Origin: a virus
Strand: one strand, 5' to 3'
Length of the DNA stretch: 25,257 nt
IMG/VR virus record: IMGVR_UViG_3300028925_010937
Location: 1 to 25,257 of that record
In this document: positions 252 to 7,415 of the stretch, one piece after another
Layout: every line of letters begins with the position of its first letter
Numbering within the stretch: position 1 is the stretch's first letter
The notes under the pieces: model-generated
What the model saw: the letters and a program-made list of their open reading frames with translations, nothing else
The model's database searches: none
What the model was told of the DNA's origin: nothing
Made by a program: the position numbers and the translations under genes

Positions 252-605
252 ATGGACGGCGCAATCGATCTTAGACTCTTACTTTCTCTTGGTGCGATAC
301 TTGTTTCAGTAGTGGCGGCATCAGCTATTGTAAAACAGAAGCTTTCCTCGGTGATTACTAAACTTGACGATTTGCAAAAGGACTACGAATCAAGGTTACG
401 CGCCCTTAACCATCGAACAGACAAGCAGGAAAATCTTATAGACCTATGTCGTCAGAAGACAGATGTGATTGGTGAAATTTTGTCTCCAAAAGAACTGGCG
501 AAAATCAATAGAGAGAGTGAGCGACTGATCGTACTTACGGAGAGTAACTCTCTACGGATTTCCAAATTAGAGTCGTTACATAACGGAAAGCATCCAAGTC
601 AGTGA
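252..605 (+). CDS. Small membrane protein with coiled coil, first gene of lysis cassette
   Basis: This is a 117-residue protein. A hydrophobic segment lies at about residues 8-27 (LLLSLGAILVSVVAASAIV), followed by a long charged helical region (about 28-110) with heptad-like spacing. The layout is one N-terminal membrane anchor with a soluble coiled-coil tail. An AAGG stretch lies a few bases upstream of the ATG. The stop TGA (603-605) overlaps the GTG start of the endolysin gene, so the two are probably translationally coupled. Position and topology suggest a lysis accessory or single-TM holin/antiholin, but a better spanin pair exists downstream, so no definite role is assigned. Confidence 0.7.
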   Translation: MDGAIDLRLLLSLGAILVSVVAASAIVKQKLSSVITKLDDLQKDYESRLRALNHRTDKQENLIDLCRQKTDVIGEILSPKELAKINRESERLIVLTESNSLRISKLESLHNGKHPSQ

Positions 606-1063
606 ATATTTATGGCAAGACATCTACAGCAAGGCTCGAAACCTGTTCCAAGATTTTGCAGGCTGTCTGTCAAGAGGCAATTAAACGAACACCGTATTTC
701 GCTGATCGAACTCGGGAACTCGTAGTTCCAGACCTCATCGTAATCTGTGGCCACCGCACAGAGGAGGAACAACAGCGAGCTTTTGATAGCGGCATGTCAA
801 AGGTGCAATGGCCGAACTCTAAACACAATACAGACCCGTCAATTGCTGTAGATATCGGCCCATATATCAAAGACTTACCGGGCCATATTCCGTGGGGTAC
901 TAAAGATATATGGAAGTCACTCTATTCGTTGATGATGGAGGTTTCCGATGATCTTGATATCCCCCTACGGTCTGGGATAGACTGGAACAATAATGGCGTT
1001 TTCGTCGATGGTGACCCCACCGAATCATTTTGGGACGCGCCACATTATGAATTGAGGTTTTAG
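602..1063 (+). CDS. Endolysin: M15-family (VanY/L-Ala-D-Glu type) zinc peptidase
   Basis: This 153-residue protein has the layout of phage M15 peptidoglycan peptidases such as the T5 endolysin. The first zinc site lies in SKHNTDPSIAVDIGP (H75 and D84), and the C-terminal DAPHYEL gives D145 as likely catalytic residue and H148 as third zinc ligand. It should cleave peptide cross-links of host peptidoglycan at lysis. It has no signal peptide, so release through a holin is expected. The start is GTG, inside the stop region of the previous gene (GTGA overlap), and the next gene begins directly after the stop. H75 and D84 are nine residues apart; a shorter H-x6-D spacing is seen in several family members, and the Pro-containing longer form is familiar among phage endolysins. 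Confidence 0.9.
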   Translation: MNIYGKTSTARLETCSKILQAVCQEAIKRTPYFADRTRELVVPDLIVICGHRTEEEQQRAFDSGMSKVQWPNSKHNTDPSIAVDIGPYIKDLPGHIPWGTKDIWKSLYSLMMEVSDDLDIPLRSGIDWNNNGVFVDGDPTESFWDAPHYELRF

Positions 1064-1578: not shown

Positions 1579-1706
1579 AGCGTTACTGCCAGTTGCATCT
1601 GCACCCATTACGGCGAAAGAGGCGAGTTAATGAGCTGCGCATATATATCGTCTTTATTCTTATTGGGTTTATTGTACTGCTCGGGTTTTCTTTAGGTCAA
1701 AAATAA
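1575..1706 (+). CDS. 43-residue single-TM protein, TTG start, coupled on both sides
   Basis: This short frame begins with TTG 1575-1577, which overlaps the TGA of the preceding gene, and ends with TAA 1704-1706, whose last A is the first base of the i-spanin ATG (TAATG). The product has a very basic N terminus (LRRKRR at about residues 12-17) followed by one hydrophobic segment, IYIVFILIGFIVLLGF, at about residues 23-38. That is a classic N-in membrane protein. Both junctions look like translational coupling, and without this gene there would be an unexplained 127-base gap. A holin, antiholin or other small lysis protein is plausible by position. The start codon is the weakest point; a later TTG at 1593 is also in frame. 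Confidence 0.55.
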   Translation: MKRYCQLHLHPLRRKRRVNELRIYIVFILIGFIVLLGFSLGQK

Positions 1707-2200
1707 TGATTCAGGCACTGCTGATTGTCACCGTTATTATGACTGGCGCTGCGGCGTTTGCAGGGAACGGCTGGCTACAGGCCAAAGAGCAGCTTGGGGC
1801 GCTTAACACCGCCCTACAGGTGCAGCAGATTGAGGTCAAGAAAGCCAAAGAGACGAATGATAAACTAGTTAAAGATTTTCAGAGCAAGGCTCTAGCCCTC
1901 CATAAAATTCAAGTTGAACGTAGGTTTGAAAATGCAAAGCATGGTAGAGAAGTGGCGGCACTTCAGCGACGGGCACAAAAGGCTGAGGATGCGGGGGCAA
2001 AGTATCCAAATCGTTTGCCTTTATATATTTCTAACCGTATCAATCGGGGCATGTGGCTCGCCTGTAAGTCTTCTCGGGCTCAACCTCGATCTGACTGCAA
2101 ACTCTCCATTATTAAAACACCCAAGGCCGGACGTTCTAATAAACCCAAGGGTAAGCCGAGGGTTCAACCCAGGAAAGATACCGCAAAACCAGCACCATAA
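1706..2200 (+). CDS. i-spanin (Rz-like) inner-membrane subunit
   Basis: This 164-residue protein has an N-terminal membrane anchor (about residues 4-22, LLIVTVIMTGAAAFAG) followed by a long charged coiled-coil region (about 24-95, rich in Lys, Glu, Gln and Ala). The tail is basic and Pro-rich. This N-in, C-out layout is that of Rz-type i-spanins, which span the periplasm with an outer-membrane lipoprotein and fuse the two membranes in the last step of lysis. The call is strengthened by a second gene with a lipoprotein signal nested in its 3' half in another frame, the Rz/Rz1 arrangement. The ATG overlaps the stop of the small TM gene (TAATG). Confidence 0.8.
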   Translation: MIQALLIVTVIMTGAAAFAGNGWLQAKEQLGALNTALQVQQIEVKKAKETNDKLVKDFQSKALALHKIQVERRFENAKHGREVAALQRRAQKAEDAGAKYPNRLPLYISNRINRGMWLACKSSRAQPRSDCKLSIIKTPKAGRSNKPKGKPRVQPRKDTAKPAP

Positions 2201-2378
2201 GTATGTTTGTCTTCAGGTTTCAGATTTTTCTGTCCTTGAGGTTTGGCGGGCTAACGTGCGGCGAGTGACGAAACAATGCCACAAAGCCTTAGATTATTAC
2301 GAAAACGCTATTGATAAAGCCGATGGCGAAGACGAAGAAAAGAAGAAGAAAAAGAAGAAAAAGAAGAAAAGCAATTAA
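1989..2378 (+). CDS. o-spanin (Rz1-like) outer-membrane lipoprotein, nested in i-spanin gene
   Basis: Reading from ATG 1989 gives about 129 residues starting with a signal sequence and a lipobox: VCLYIFLTVSIGAC, with the lipid-modified Cys at residue 22 (I-G-A-C). A ribosome site AAAAGG (1977-1982) lies six bases upstream, so this start is preferred over in-frame ATGs at 1914-1941, which would put 40 or more residues ahead of the signal. The mature part has several prolines, as Rz1 proteins do, but is longer than usual. It continues about 60 codons beyond the i-spanin stop and ends in an acidic stretch and a run of ten lysines. The gene converges with the - strand hydrolase gene, their stop regions overlapping by four bases. 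Confidence 0.75.
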   Translation: MRGQSIQIVCLYIFLTVSIGACGSPVSLLGLNLDLTANSPLLKHPRPDVLINPRVSRGFNPGKIPQNQHHKYVCLQVSDFSVLEVWRANVRRVTKQCHKALDYYENAIDKADGEDEEKKKKKKKKKKSN

Positions 2379-2773
2379 CGGTAAAAAATATGCTCACCAA
2401 TTTTAATGGTTTGCTGCAAAGAAAGTCGCCACGCAGGAAACACTTTTGTTGTGTGGTAGTGTGTCGCACCCTCAGATACATCGAGGCGGTTTGAGATCGC
2501 GGACTTCGCCACATTTAGCGCGGTGTGCCAAGCTGCCCGGTCGCTGACCACCTCTAACTGACCATCACACCAAAACGAAAATTGGCACCTGTTCTTAATC
2601 GGATGACCGGAGGGGTACACCGGCCCCTCGAACACGACGGCGCAAATATTATTTGGATATCGGCTGCTCAGTTTTCGGTTGATAATGACGTTAGCCACAG
2701 CGAGTTGACCGGCTATAGGCTCTGAGCGAGCCTCAAAATAAACCGCAAAAGCGAGGCAAGCTATCTCCAGCAC
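2375..2773 (-). CDS. Cell wall hydrolase, SleB/CwlJ family
   Basis: This 132-residue protein matches the SleB-type hydrolase domain (Hydrolase_2) over almost its whole length. It has CLAFAVYFEARSEP near the N terminus with the conserved Glu at residue 14, then AVANVIINR, then CQFSFWCDG, and finally GATHYHT with PAWR. Members cleave peptidoglycan glycan strands. The start is GTG (2771-2773), set exactly at the usual domain start and overlapping the lipoprotein gene by 13 bases. No export signal is visible. It lies at the distal end of the replication-gene operon, on the opposite strand from the M15 endolysin, so the phage carries two different peptidoglycan-degrading enzymes. Confidence 0.88.
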   Translation of the reverse strand: MLEIACLAFAVYFEARSEPIAGQLAVANVIINRKLSSRYPNNICAVVFEGPVYPSGHPIKNRCQFSFWCDGQLEVVSDRAAWHTALNVAKSAISNRLDVSEGATHYHTTKVFPAWRLSLQQTIKIGEHIFYR

Positions 2774-3030
2774 GGGGAAAGTTTAAGTTTAGATGAAGTG
2801 CCGTCCGATTTGCGCTGCTTAAAATACACCCGGCTGAATGTTGTGGTCCTAACCCCCAAACCAAGCAATCCCATTGCCCACCTGTCGTCGTCGGCTATAT
2901 GGCAACCGATGTACTCGAAATTCCCTGAACTGATTTCTTCTTGGGGATCGTTGCTCAACCTCGCTAAATTTTGTGGTGCACATGCACTCAGGACTAACAG
3001 TCCAGATAATATCAACATTGTGTTTTTCAT
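2761..3030 (-). CDS. Small lipoprotein of unknown function
   Basis: This 89-residue protein begins with a typical lipoprotein signal, MKNTMLILSGLLVLSAC, lipobox L-S-A-C with the lipidated Cys at residue 17. The mature part is about 72 residues with two further Cys and no family motif that I recognise. GAGGA lies about eight bases before the ATG. Its 3' end overlaps the SleB-type hydrolase gene, so the two are probably translated together. Phage lipoproteins of this size can act as o-spanins or block superinfection; neither can be decided here. A better o-spanin candidate exists at 1989-2378. Confidence 0.75.
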   Translation of the reverse strand: MKNTMLILSGLLVLSACAPQNLARLSNDPQEEISSGNFEYIGCHIADDDRWAMGLLGLGVRTTTFSRVYFKQRKSDGTSSKLKLSPCWR

Positions 3031-3045
3031 TTACATATTCCTCAT

Positions 3046-3279
3046 TCATTCATTCAATAATTTCTTTTCGGGAGGTCCAGGGTGCTCGAAGTAATCGTTG
3101 TACTCGTAGCGCCCTGGTCCGGGATCAATACACACTGCCCCATAGACCGCCCGCCCGGCGTGATATAACCGATGTGCTCTTTTGTATGTCGGCAAGTTGG
3201 CGGGCCAGTAATCAAGCTCCAAGTCTTTCTGCGCTTCGCACCACTCCTCAACCACGAGCCGGAAATCAGAGTAGTTCAT
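3046..3279 (-). CDS. Hypothetical protein, coupled to ACP-like gene
   Basis: This 77-residue protein is rich in Tyr and Trp (DLELDYWPANLP; YHAGRAVYGAV) with no membrane segment or recognised motif. Its ATG at 3279 overlaps the TGA of the acyl-carrier-protein-like gene (ATGA), a strong coupling sign suggesting the two are made together. Whether it acts with the ACP is open. A tandem GAATGAATGAATGA stretch at its stop codon leads into the ribosome site of the lipoprotein gene, allowing reinitiation. Confidence 0.65.
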   Translation of the reverse strand: MNYSDFRLVVEEWCEAQKDLELDYWPANLPTYKRAHRLYHAGRAVYGAVCIDPGPGRYEYNDYFEHPGPPEKKLLNE

Positions 3280-3572
3280 AAACGGTTATACTCCGCGAGG
3301 ATTTCATCGACAACCAACGCTGCATTGCGTGGCGTTGTTACGCGGTCGGCTAGGGGGCTGTTAACATCGATGCTCACTTTGAAGATGTCTTCGATCTCCA
3401 TTATGAGGTGTATTTGGTCTAGGCTATCTAACCCAATAAATTCTGCATCGGGGGCAGCCCCGCCCGCAATGTTACTCCCGTCCATCAGATAACTGTCGGG
3501 CTTCACGGCCTCCTCGTTGACGTCGTAGAGGCCGTTATTAAGAAGAGCGAGAATGGTGTCGAGTGTCGTCAT
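3276..3572 (-). CDS. Acyl carrier protein-like protein
   Basis: This protein of about 98 residues has the phosphopantetheine attachment signature GLDSLDQIHLIMEIEDIF; the modified Ser is residue 50 from this start (54 from an alternative ATG at 3584). Its first residues TTLDTILALL and the following helix DSLDQIHLIMEIED fit the ACP four-helix fold. Between helix 1 and the DSL motif there is a longer loop than in classic ACPs. ACPs carry acyl or other groups as thioesters after modification by a host holo-ACP synthase. No acyl-transferring enzyme is seen nearby, so the cargo is unknown. ATG 3572 gives the usual ACP N terminus, preceded by GGTGAG; ATG 3584 would overlap the upstream small gene by seven bases. 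Confidence 0.8.
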   Translation of the reverse strand: MTTLDTILALLNNGLYDVNEEAVKPDSYLMDGSNIAGGAAPDAEFIGLDSLDQIHLIMEIEDIFKVSIDVNSPLADRVTTPRNAALVVDEILAEYNRL

Positions 3573-3577
3573 TCTTC

Positions 3578-3733
3578 TCACCATTTCTTCTTCATTGAGA
3601 CAATGCTTTTTACAAAGGCGTCTACTTTATTTTTAGGCACCCACAGGCAAATCTTCTTGTGCGTTTCCGCCTTGCGCCGCTGATATCGATCTTGCGCTTC
3701 TGCATGTGCAGACCTACCTGTTTTCTTCGTCAT
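3578..3733 (-). CDS. 51-residue basic protein, possibly DNA-binding
   Basis: A frame of 51 codons fills the gap between the DUF6378 gene and the ACP-like gene. Its ATG at 3733 has an excellent ribosome site (AAGGAGGAAGAATTAA just upstream), which lies inside the end of the preceding gene (20-base overlap). The stop TGA lies at 3578-3580. The protein is strongly basic in its first half (TKKTGRSAHAEAQDRYQRRK) and then reads ICLWVPKNKVDAFVKS. That strand-then-helix pattern resembles small phage and plasmid ribbon-helix-helix proteins, which is only a resemblance. Confidence 0.7.
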   Translation of the reverse strand: MTKKTGRSAHAEAQDRYQRRKAETHKKICLWVPKNKVDAFVKSIVSMKKKW

Positions 3734-4250
3734 TTAATTCTTCCTCCTTAAGTATCATTGCGATTGTTCGGGCGTACCCAGCTATGTCGATAATACTATC
3801 AATGTGTTTGGGTGAGTTGCACAGACGAGACATCTTCACGGCGATCATTTCCAGCGCGTGACGGATCTCAGGGTGAGGACAATCAGAGAGCGCCTCTTTA
3901 AGTTTTGTGATCCTCGCGAAGTCCCCCTTGGGGTGACCATAATCCACACCGCGATGATCGTTTATTTCTGACAGTGTGCGGTCGAAGATTTCAACTGTAT
4001 CGGGTTCGCGTACAGGGACGGCATCTTGCTTGAAGATGTACTGGTTAGTAAGGTGGCTAAGACCGCCCGGCTTCATATTCGTGTTTGTAATCTGTTCTTT
4101 AAACCGTTTTGTATCGGCGGAGTACAATTCACGGTTCTTCCGTAACCGTTCAGCCTCATCATCCTCCGGTTGCTCAACGTCAGACGGTGCCTCGACCTTG
4201 CGCGGTGCTTTAGGGACAACATTTAAACAGTCTGTAGGATATTCAGGCAT
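3714..4250 (-). CDS. DUF6378 domain protein
   Basis: This 178-residue protein has a disordered, acidic N-terminal half. The C-terminal domain (about residues 97-170) reads DHRGVDYGHPKGDF, then a helix with HALEMIAVKMSRL, then HIDSIIDIAGYARTI. This arrangement of YGxP, KxxR and D-x2-DxAGY is that of the DUF6378 family, common in phages and of unknown function; its helical motifs recall nucleotide-pyrophosphohydrolase-like folds, but that is inference. The ATG at 4250 has AGGA upstream. The 3' end overlaps the 51-residue gene. It lies among replication genes, so a role in nucleotide metabolism would fit but is unproven. Confidence 0.8.
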   Translation of the reverse strand: MPEYPTDCLNVVPKAPRKVEAPSDVEQPEDDEAERLRKNRELYSADTKRFKEQITNTNMKPGGLSHLTNQYIFKQDAVPVREPDTVEIFDRTLSEINDHRGVDYGHPKGDFARITKLKEALSDCPHPEIRHALEMIAVKMSRLCNSPKHIDSIIDIAGYARTIAMILKEEELNDEENR

Positions 4251-4304: not shown

Positions 4305-4784
4305 CTAGACATTTAGCTCACCCTGTGCGGGATCGGCAGCCTCATAGTTGGCCAGCCACTGTTCCCTACTGACCAGCCCCTTTTTGCCCTTACCTCTTAT
4401 AATTTTTACAGCTCGGCCTAGTATGGACTGCTGCAGGATGCGCTCGACCGAACCCATAGGCCACGGACCGCTAGACACTATGTACAGGGGTGTAAAATTA
4501 TGCAGAGACAAGGCCGCGTCTTGGTCGATGCGGAACTTAGACTGCAAAGGCCAATACTCAGCCGGGGTGTTTTCTGTAGTTGCCCGTGTCCCTTTAAACA
4601 CAATAGTGTTGCCCCTGTATTTTTTCTTCTTCTTCGCGGCGGTTAAAGCCTTCTCCAAATCTATCTTTAAGTCGGCATTTTCCTCCAGGCTCTTTTCCAT
4701 AGCCGTGCTTAACCCTTTAACGTACTCAATCTGCTCCTCTAGATCGACCTGCAGCTTATGGATATCGGTTGGTTTATTAAACAT
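4305..4784 (-). CDS. Hypothetical protein with N-terminal coiled coil
   Basis: This 159-residue protein has a likely coiled coil over about residues 8-50 (Leu/Glu/Lys-rich), a Lys run (AAKKKKKYRG) near residue 50, and a C-terminal region containing GPWPMGSVERILQQSI and REQWLANYEAA. I do not recognise the family. The ATG has a very good ribosome site (AGGAGGTTACC). It follows the DNA polymerase gene by nine bases and is surely in the same operon. The basic middle and the position suggest contact with nucleic acid or with the replication complex, but this is not shown. Confidence 0.7.
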   Translation of the reverse strand: MFNKPTDIHKLQVDLEEQIEYVKGLSTAMEKSLEENADLKIDLEKALTAAKKKKKYRGNTIVFKGTRATTENTPAEYWPLQSKFRIDQDAALSLHNFTPLYIVSSGPWPMGSVERILQQSILGRAVKIIRGKGKKGLVSREQWLANYEAADPAQGELNV

Positions 4785-4793
4785 GGTAACCTC

Positions 4794-6596
4794 CTATTCA
4801 AGTGCGGCCCAGTTCGGGCCAATGCCGCCCTCGACGATATTGTCGATAGGTGCGCCGGGGAACATGTCGAGGTAACCGGCGACCATGTCGGCGTTCATAA
4901 CCTCGAGACATTCCTGTGTATCCTTGACGGCTGCTTCATCGATCAGCGCGTCATGGATGGTCGACAACATGCGCGTCATGCGCTGCTTGCCCCTTGCTCG
5001 TAACAGATCGAGCGAGTTCTTATGTCGTGTGATGGCACGAGCCATGATACTGAGAGCTGCCCTCTGCACCGGAAAATTTGCAGCGCGGGGCAGGTCCGGT
5101 CTCCTCGACATGTAGACTGTGCCACCGTCGACCATGCGGATGTAGCCGGACCTGCTGGCTTCGTCCATCATGTCAAAGCGTAGTTGAAATGCTTTCGGAT
5201 ACCGATCCTGCCAGAAGTCGATATACCCCTGCGCCTTGTCGGCGGTCGTGCGCATGACCGTCGATAGGCCAGTGGCACCTGCGCCGTAGATGATGCCGAA
5301 GCTGACGCCCTTTGCCGCTTGACGTGCTGCTTTACCCGCCTTTGTCTTCTTGTCGATTGTGTGGCCCGCGATGACCGCCGCGACTTCTGAATGGACGTCT
5401 CCCTCGACCATGTCCTCAAGGAGCTGCTCATCACCGGACAGCAAGGCCAGCACACGCAGCTCGATACCAGAGTAGTCGAGGGAGACTAGACGGCGCCCCA
5501 TGCCCGCAATAAACGACCGGCGGACTGAGGTGCTCTCCCCAAGCAACTCGAGATCTCTCGGTATCTGTTGCAGATTGGGCGACGTACATGAGAACCGGCC
5601 AGTCTTTGCTGCGCCGATGTTGAAACGTGCGCGAACGCGCTTGTCCGGCGACATCTCTGACCTAGTGATTAATGTTTCACCGAAGGAAGATATGTATTTG
5701 CTAATGGTTTTATATTCTGACAGCGCGTCGAAGAAGTCCTCAAGAGGGGTGCCAGGAACTGCACCCGCTAACTGCTTTAACGTCGCGCCCTTCATAGATA
5801 GCAGACCTGTTTTCTCCGTCTTAGGCCACGCCGCCAGGAAGTCGCTCGGCATCCTTTGCGTGAAGTAATCCGACCATTGAGCATCCGACCTAACATTTGC
5901 AACCTCATCCTCGCCTACGAGGTCGCGTATCCTCTTGAGCCGAGTAGCCTGTGTTTTGATCCAAGATTTAATGAGCAGGCGGTGGTGCTTCGGGTCGAGT
6001 AACATGCCCGCAGTTTCCATCTCGATGACAGCGGGGACAAGGTCGTTGAACATTTTGAACCCCATCCACCGGCCCTCGTCGGCCTGCATCGACCAATAGA
6101 GCCACAGCTGCCATGTCCAGTGCGCATCACCGTAGGCATAATCGAGTTGGGATTGCGTAAGCGTCTTCGCGGCCCAGTCACTGATCTGTTCCTCTTTATC
6201 CATGTCGTGCGCTAAGTCCCACAGCAGCAGTTGCTTTAGGGAGTACGAGCCGCCGCCGAGTATAGCGCGTCTAAGGTAGCCGACATCTAGGCACCTTACA
6301 TCATAGCCCGCGTCCAGGAACCACCGGTTCTCGAAACCCGCGTTGAATACAACCCACGATCCACCCTCGAAAATATTAGCGGTGCGCCTGAAGCCGCCCT
6401 TAATCTTGTCGAAGTCGACGAGGTAGCGGCACTTGTCATTGCAAAGGCTGACCAAACGGACGCGGCCCTCGGCAGGGACGAGGCACGTCGTCTCGAAGTC
6501 CAGCGCAGTATTTCCAATCTTCTTGCATCGGACCACTGCTTTGTCGAGCGCGGCCTTACTTGACACCATCGTGTATTTTGGTTTATGGATCGTCAT
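4794..6596 (-). CDS. DNA polymerase I (family A) with 3'-5' exonuclease domain
   Basis: This 600-residue protein has a proofreading domain (about 30-170): ExoI ALDFETT (D33, E35), ExoII FNAGFE (N85, with E89 where Asp is usual) and ExoIII YAYGD (Y153, D157). The polymerase domain carries TGRFSC and NLQQIP (about 332-346), motif A LDYSGIELR (D374), motif B with R425, K429, F433, Y437 and G438, and motif C IHDALIDE (H548, D549). F433 is at the position equivalent to Phe762 of E. coli Pol I. No 5'-3' exonuclease domain is present, which is normal for phage enzymes. It replicates the phage genome with the primase-helicase encoded at 12532. An AGGAGG lies 16 bases before the ATG, unusually far. 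Confidence 0.97.
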   Translation of the reverse strand: MTIHKPKYTMVSSKAALDKAVVRCKKIGNTALDFETTCLVPAEGRVRLVSLCNDKCRYLVDFDKIKGGFRRTANIFEGGSWVVFNAGFENRWFLDAGYDVRCLDVGYLRRAILGGGSYSLKQLLLWDLAHDMDKEEQISDWAAKTLTQSQLDYAYGDAHWTWQLWLYWSMQADEGRWMGFKMFNDLVPAVIEMETAGMLLDPKHHRLLIKSWIKTQATRLKRIRDLVGEDEVANVRSDAQWSDYFTQRMPSDFLAAWPKTEKTGLLSMKGATLKQLAGAVPGTPLEDFFDALSEYKTISKYISSFGETLITRSEMSPDKRVRARFNIGAAKTGRFSCTSPNLQQIPRDLELLGESTSVRRSFIAGMGRRLVSLDYSGIELRVLALLSGDEQLLEDMVEGDVHSEVAAVIAGHTIDKKTKAGKAARQAAKGVSFGIIYGAGATGLSTVMRTTADKAQGYIDFWQDRYPKAFQLRFDMMDEASRSGYIRMVDGGTVYMSRRPDLPRAANFPVQRAALSIMARAITRHKNSLDLLRARGKQRMTRMLSTIHDALIDEAAVKDTQECLEVMNADMVAGYLDMFPGAPIDNIVEGGIGPNWAALE

Positions 6597-6662: not shown

Positions 6663-6684
6663 CCCCGCCCCGCAAGGGGCGGGG
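6663..6684. terminator. Strong GC hairpin between polymerase and upstream gene
   Basis: CCCCGCCCC (6663-6671) pairs perfectly with GGGGCGGGG (6676-6684) across a four-base loop. It lies just after the stop of the Lys-tailed protein gene (- strand) and before the polymerase gene. Neither side is followed by a true T run, so it is more likely an attenuating or mRNA-stabilising hairpin, or a weak terminator, than a full terminator. Confidence 0.55.
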
Positions 6685-6698
6685 TTAATTCTATCGAA

Positions 6699-7415
6699 CT
6701 ACTTTCGCTTCTTTTTCGCGGCCTTCTTGGCCACCTTCTTTTTAGGTTTGAGGCCATCTACAAGTTCAGACATGCTCATGTCGCCTGCAAGATATGCAGC
6801 AGCACTTGCACGAGTGACCCATGACTCCCGAGGCAGCACCGGTTTATGATTTGTGTTACCTTGCGCAACAAAACTCTCCGCCTCAAAATAAATCAGCGGT
6901 AAACTTGGCTCGCCTGCGCTTGCACGTAACCCTATCTCTTTCATCAGGTCGGCTATAGAATTACGACCAGACTTCGATGTTGAACTGAACTCGATTTGGG
7001 AGTTCTTCTTGTCGCACGCTATGGCACCAAAACCGAGCATCTGCTGCCAGCCCTCGCCGCTGCTCTCGCGGTACGGCCCATGCTCTGTGAGCATCTCTTT
7101 AGAGACAGCCTGCTCCTTAGTTTTAAGGACATCCCACTTAATACGGTCGATGGGTTTGGAGTTTTTCCAGCACGTCCAGCCCGCCACAAAGGTATGGGGC
7201 TCGACGATGTACAGCTGCTCAGGGTCGACTGGCTCTTTATCTCTACCGAGAGAATATAGCCCTGATTTACCTGAGAACGAAAGGTAATCAGATGTCCCGG
7301 CACCCGCGCCTGTCGTAGCGTCATCAGCAGCTTCTGATAATGCAGCGGCCAAGACCGCGTCGTCGATAGCGGGTAGAGAAGACGTGTTGAGATACTTTGT
7401 TAGATCATTAGACAT
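6699..7415 (-). CDS. Replication-associated protein with Lys-rich tail; possible ssDNA-binding protein
   Basis: This 238-residue protein begins with an Ala/Asp-rich stretch and continues with a core (about 40-205) containing LSFSGKSGLYSLGRD, FVAGWTCWKN and LPLIYFEAESF. It ends in a strongly basic tail of about 16 residues (PKKKVAKKAAKKKRK). It lies between the nuclease and DNA polymerase genes. The size, beta-rich core and position are those of the uncharacterised proteins often taken as the phage ssDNA-binding protein in such operons. A classic SSB or gp2.5 has an acidic tail, whereas this tail is basic, so the call is tentative. The ATG has AGGA upstream. Confidence 0.5.
   Translation of the reverse strand: MSNDLTKYLNTSSLPAIDDAVLAAALSEAADDATTGAGAGTSDYLSFSGKSGLYSLGRDKEPVDPEQLYIVEPHTFVAGWTCWKNSKPIDRIKWDVLKTKEQAVSKEMLTEHGPYRESSGEGWQQMLGFGAIACDKKNSQIEFSSTSKSGRNSIADLMKEIGLRASAGEPSLPLIYFEAESFVAQGNTNHKPVLPRESWVTRASAAAYLAGDMSMSELVDGLKPKKKVAKKAAKKKRK

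Follow-up and report, generated by a model that had tools for sequence, protein, structure and literature searches.

The open reading frame (ORF) at positions 3276-3584 of the phage DNA analysed here (the window, an IMG/VR virus record of 25,257 bases that is probably a fragment) was confirmed to encode an acyl carrier protein (ACP) of type II whose attachment serine is intact. No phosphopantetheinyl transferase (PPTase), ketosynthase or acyltransferase was found in the 25,257-bp record, in agreement with a preliminary description of this DNA that had reported no acyltransferase, synthase or PPTase nearby, and the window ACP is an orphan within this possibly incomplete record. Orphan status is the rule among phage ACPs and no peculiarity of this phage, with a ketosynthase present in 1/50, an AMP-binding ligase in 1/50 and AcpS/PPTase in 0/50 other ACP-carrying viral records. 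Because PPTase and ketosynthase are missing here and from nearly all of these 50 records, the partners of the ACP must be host proteins.

The genes recognised in the window are those of a tailed phage (DNA polymerase, exonuclease, helicase, primase, RuvC-like resolvase, large terminase, head-tail adaptor and major head protein), and its terminase is similar to those of Pseudomonas phage vB_PaeP_Tr60_Ab31 and Cobetia phage Carin1, with epsilon15 more distant. The presence of an Rz-like spanin with an overlapping lipoprotein frame (Table 1) points to a Gram-negative host. Within the window, no RNA families or tRNAs were found, promoter-like counts showed no excess over shuffles, and a PADLOC search found nothing.

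Sequence and predicted fold of the carrier protein

The preliminary description had placed the gene at 3276-3572. This start is plausible, and the 98-amino acid form made from the internal ATG at 3572 gives a better N-terminal alignment with other ACPs than does the 102-amino acid form encoded by the full ORF. The carrier-protein signature that had been noted in the sequence, GLDSLDQIHLIMEIEDIF, is indeed present, and homology, profile score and predicted fold agree with it. The predicted attachment residue is Ser54 in GLDSLDQIHLIMEIED, which contains the D-S-L motif of type II ACPs. A PHROG profile search gave a significant match to phrog_5934 'acyl carrier protein' (E 2.5e-6, residues 50-98), and a single-sequence phmmer search of the PDB gave a best E value of 5e-4, with ACPs making up 60/60 of the matches listed. 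Using a hidden Markov model (HMM) of other phage ACPs, the window ACP scored 30.7 bits, whereas 20,000 shuffles reached at most 12.3 bits and no frame among the remaining 489 of the window scored above the shuffles. The PF00550 score of 19.2 bits lies just below the cut-off of 20.8 bits, with the helix II part alone being matched, and matches to the NCBIfam ACP equivalogs are far under their cut-offs. On account of these two results, the protein is classed from its sequence as an ACP-fold protein that is not an AcpP equivalog.

AlphaFold2 (AF2) modelling on an alignment with 41 viral ACPs gave a pLDDT of 90.7 and helices at residues 7-16, 54-68 (with Ser54 as the first residue), 77-80 and 85-101, and VIA-align comparison of the model with ACPs gave Z scores of 10-11.6 at 1.7-2.0 Å; the input alignment consisted of ACPs and steered the model. 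Alignment-free, single-sequence AF2 gave a pLDDT of 44, which is too poor to use, with the helix order unchanged. Structure prediction had been proposed as a check, with a fold unlike ACP counting against the assignment, and the fold predicted is the four-helix fold of ACPs.

The window ACP is unusual in three respects within a comparison set of 42 rows that includes 41 viral ACPs and was selected by a GADSLD-type pattern, so that conservation around the Ser is overstated: a 13-residue insert before the Ser is present in 1/42 aligned ACPs (the window protein), His59 occupies a position that is Glu in 40/42, and Val74 occupies a position that is Asp in 39/42. Its net charge is -11, compared with -15 for AcpP. 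In AcpS-ACP complexes the helix II surface is the part read by AcpS, and the retention of Ser54, Asp53, Asp56, Met62 and Glu65 on this surface supports modification of the window protein by AcpS. The reading that we tentatively prefer is that host AcpS makes the window ACP holo and that the holo-ACP then competes in the host ACP network. AcpS would attach phosphopantetheine to Ser54 during infection, and the phage ACP would compete with the host ACP, or take its place, at some of the host proteins that bind ACP, candidate targets being the synthesis of fatty acids, phospholipids or lipid A, or regulators, SpoT among them. The changed surface (the insert adjoining the Ser, a helix II that bears His in place of Glu, and Val in place of Asp) would narrow or alter the partner set, resulting in a shift of host lipid or envelope metabolism with no phage-encoded pathway being served. 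The same substitutions also count against an AcpS-dependent carrier, as FAS enzymes and AcpS use the surface that carries His59 and Val74, and the protein may be a poor substrate of either.

Gene order and the accessory slot

The ACP gene lies in a minus-strand run with the order polymerase, 159-amino acid ORF, DUF6378 gene, 51-amino acid ORF, ACP, 77-amino acid ORF, 89-amino acid lipoprotein-like ORF and cell-wall hydrolase (Table 1). The preliminary description had assigned the ACP to a phage replication operon; the run does begin with replication genes, but the ACP itself is at the 3′ end, in an accessory slot. The PHROG label 'phosphofructokinase' of the DUF6378 gene is doubtful, and the 89-amino acid ORF has no family match in Pfam or PHROGs. 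Elsewhere in the window, an all-GC hairpin of 9 bp lies at 6663-6684 (-), between the polymerase and the gene at 6699-7415, and two predicted wall hydrolases that differ from each other, at 602-1063 (+) and 2375-2773 (-), lie on converging strands within 2 kb.

Table 1 Coordinates of the carrier protein gene, its insert and neighbouring features of the window
Feature	Position	Strand	Details
i-spanin (Rz-like)	1706-2200	+	phrog_739
Rz1-like lipoprotein ORF	1989-2378	+	Overlaps i-spanin out of frame
Cell-wall hydrolase	2375-2773	-	Final gene of run; PF07486 Hydrolase_2; phrog_938 endolysin
89-aa lipoprotein-like ORF	2761-3030	-	Downstream of 77-aa ORF; LLVLSAC lipobox read from sequence
77-aa Tyr-rich ORF	3046-3279	-	8/77 Tyr; ATGA overlap with ACP stop
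ACP gene, 102 aa	3276-3584	-	Predicted phosphopantetheine Ser54 within GLDSLD
13-residue insert of ACP	3438-3476	-	Residues 37-49 (SNIAGGAAPDAEF), between helix I loop and DSL motif, from alignment
51-aa Lys-rich ORF	3578-3733	-	Directly upstream of ACP; distant relatives in same place in L085, L087
DUF6378 protein	3714-4250	-	PF19905; within conserved block before slot
159-aa ORF	4305-4784	-	Between polymerase and DUF6378
DNA polymerase	4794-6596	-	Head of stretch

A recognisable ACP was absent from 49/50 related phage records and present solely in the near-identical contig IMGVR_UViG_3300028925_012905 (99.6% over 10.5 kb, with an ACP copy identical in DNA), which is the same phage; many of the related records are fragments, and ACP absence is firm just where the slot is visible. 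In one such record (L087), polymerase, a 121-amino acid ORF, DUF6378 and a gene like the 51-amino acid ORF are followed by an HTH gene in the slot instead of the ACP, and in another (L085) the gene like the 51-amino acid ORF is followed by a different gene. The ACP gene is regarded as accessory because it is present in this single near-identical contig of the 50 related records and because an HTH gene follows the block in L087. No close relatives of the ACP were found in INPHARED, or in 84,980 species genomes at the sensitivity used, where the sole match was a canonical AcpP (L204). Two sets of candidates were rejected: L117-L119 as relatives, L117 being a canonical phage ACP that lacks the insert, and L048/G032 as an ACP, being a weak match of 30% over 30 residues within a 535-amino acid frame.

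The accessory position and single occurrence of the gene could reflect an acpP gene that was acquired recently from a host and has no function in the phage. We consider this very improbable, since the protein is ~28% identical to E. coli AcpP and lacks a close relative among the species genomes at that sensitivity, and since its frame is open with a codon-position composition the same as that of the neighbouring genes. The ATGA overlap reported between the ACP and the Tyr-rich ORF is real, and such translational coupling, together with the restriction of both genes to the window and its near-identical contig, could indicate a two-gene unit in which the 77-amino acid product is the specific partner of the ACP. 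Stop/start overlaps are, however, usual in phage operons, the two contigs are one phage, and outside that contig searches of PHROGs, Pfam, INPHARED and IMG/VR gave no relative of the 77-amino acid protein, whether accompanied by an ACP or not. We regard a dedicated partnership as quite improbable.

Serine-less proteins and gene neighbourhoods of other phage ACPs

An IMG/VR profile scan gave 310 confirmed stretches, the best 80 of which were retrieved, some of them being host DNA, and no general neighbour gene of phage ACPs was found across ~80 ACP loci. The Acinetobacter MD-2021a 'phage' ACP record (fabD/fabG) and L120, L122, L123, L125 and L138 (fabG-like gene) are host DNA and were left out of the evidence on phage function. 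In publications, phage ACPs figure as auxiliary metabolic genes whose roles are unproven (PMC5463345, PMC11705849, PMC10152775, PMC8224337), and no literature on the mechanism of any phage ACP was found.

A scan with the serine-less pattern G-A-D-[D/N]-[L/F]-[D/E] in context gave 36 stretches. At least 21 viral contigs among them have Asp or Asn in place of the Ser and reach 29-86 bits as ACPs; these form six groups at 50% identity, and one serine-less ACP is still above the PF00550 cut-off. Serine-less ACPs include those of L241, L208, L233, L225, L210, L223, L220 and L219, and also L114:3995-4528. In Vibrio phage 277E43-1, a case additional to the six groups, the motif reads GFDNLD, and the Ser is kept in similar Vibrio phage proteins (P018-4, 10AMN). 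Judged from their sequences, the serine-less ACPs cannot carry phosphopantetheine on the replaced residue, and the at least 21 contigs that encode them count against a carrier reading in that some phage ACPs do not function as carriers.

A search for i-spanin/o-spanin genes up to 4 kb away from 102 ACP loci gave 12 pairs, two of which are secondary readings, leaving 10 loci, and all 12 spanin-like pairs lie directly 3′ of the ACP, starting at most ~420 nt from the ACP end and mostly touching or overlapping it; the search considered same-strand pairs only, was designed after L214 had been seen and covers related loci, and thus provides a lead rather than a measure of enrichment. The spanin-linked loci fall into about two families, one serine-less and one serine-bearing. 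A serine-less ACP directly precedes an Rz/Rz1-like pair in L214:12312-12536, L228, L229, L239, L224, L237 and L232, as does a serine-bearing ACP in L150, L151 and L162. PHROGs identified Rz-like spanins (phrog_739, phrog_812) in L150 and L162, with a Ser ACP, and in L214, with a serine-less ACP and an endolysin directly upstream of it. An ACP near a spanin-like gene has been reported in Eneladusvirus jumbo phages, as a third case (PMC7760394).

This arrangement, the six serine-less groups and the lipoprotein-like ORF and cell-wall hydrolase that end the window run favour an envelope or lysis role, in which the ACP, late in infection, would bind a host protein of envelope synthesis and aid the spanin/endolysin step, with the prosthetic arm being optional. 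ACP without phosphopantetheine supports membrane-derived oligosaccharide synthesis, which provides a precedent for such a role. For the window ACP it is the main alternative to competition in the host ACP network, but is nevertheless rather unlikely, as the protein has its Ser intact and is outside a spanin operon, with the spanins at 1706-2378 on the opposite strand, as the 10 loci amount to two observations rather than twelve, and as many other phage ACPs lie among replication or tail genes.

Other neighbourhoods of phage ACPs include gyrase genes and, in T4-like gene groups, those of the tail and neck. The ACP has a head closure Hc2 gene on one side and a tail sheath stabiliser gene on the other in L149:3246-5049, where it is serine-bearing, and in L233, L238, L210 and L240, where it is serine-less and directly precedes a T4 gp15-like gene. 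Mass spectrometry has also found ACPs in virions, both of Eneladusvirus (PMC7760394) and of phage Sajous1 with a count of 1 (PMC10892097). These observations are consistent with a virion-associated or structural carrier that is packaged or active in assembly, but the window ACP is in a replication run on the strand opposite to the structural genes, and for this protein we consider such a role improbable. A nucleotidyltransferase-like gene (GG...DID/DFD motif, identified by eye) is present one to two genes after the ACP in L114, L243 and L244 (Vibrio phages) and in L203.

Phage ACPs are filed as auxiliary metabolic genes on the assumption that they take part in the fatty acid synthesis of the host. 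That they are nearly always orphan, that some are without the key residue and that some are grouped with lysis or tail genes suggests an oversimplification in this assumption. Several lineages have swapped the Ser for Asp or Asn, and some keep the gene before spanins, as would fit a use of the ACP fold as a protein-binding tool; the broader proposal, that phages use this fold to bind host envelope or lipid machinery and not as a carrier, and that the window ACP, with its insert and changed helix II surface, still has its Ser but has been adapted to one particular partner in the host, is one we regard as rather unlikely. The wider pattern is of greater interest than the window gene itself, and makes the role of phage ACPs testable by Ser mutants, pull-downs and lysis timing.

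Comparison with known carrier proteins

E. coli AcpP, a bacterial type II ACP (PF00550), shares with the window protein the four-helix ACP fold, the Asp-Ser-Leu-Asp opening of helix II and a net acidic charge, whereas the window ACP has a longer loop I, scores under the Pfam cut-off and has no fab genes around it. The ACPs of PHROG 5934 and PHROG 4154 are, like the window protein, stand-alone small phage ACPs with the DSL motif and fold. One of them, ORF32 of Erythrobacter phage vB_EliS-R6L, has no FAS enzymes adjoining and a function called unclear (PMC5463345); it is ~35% identical to the window protein in the alignment, and the insert, His59 and Val74 distinguish the latter. The loop from helix I to the Ser is also long in the ACP of another phage, L116 (IMGVR_UViG_3300044445_000048), which shares GLDSLDxxxxIMEIEDxF as well and is 35% identical overall, but its insert differs from that of the window in sequence and length. 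ACPs of Alteromonas phage R22Y, Vibrio phage R16F and Rhodobacteraceae prophages have been assigned to host fatty acid or secondary metabolism (PMC11705849, PMC10152775, PMC8224337); three prophages pair the ACP with fabF and fabG, whereas the window ACP stands alone. Orphan phage ACPs are an already known kind of gene, of which the window ACP is a new, somewhat divergent example.
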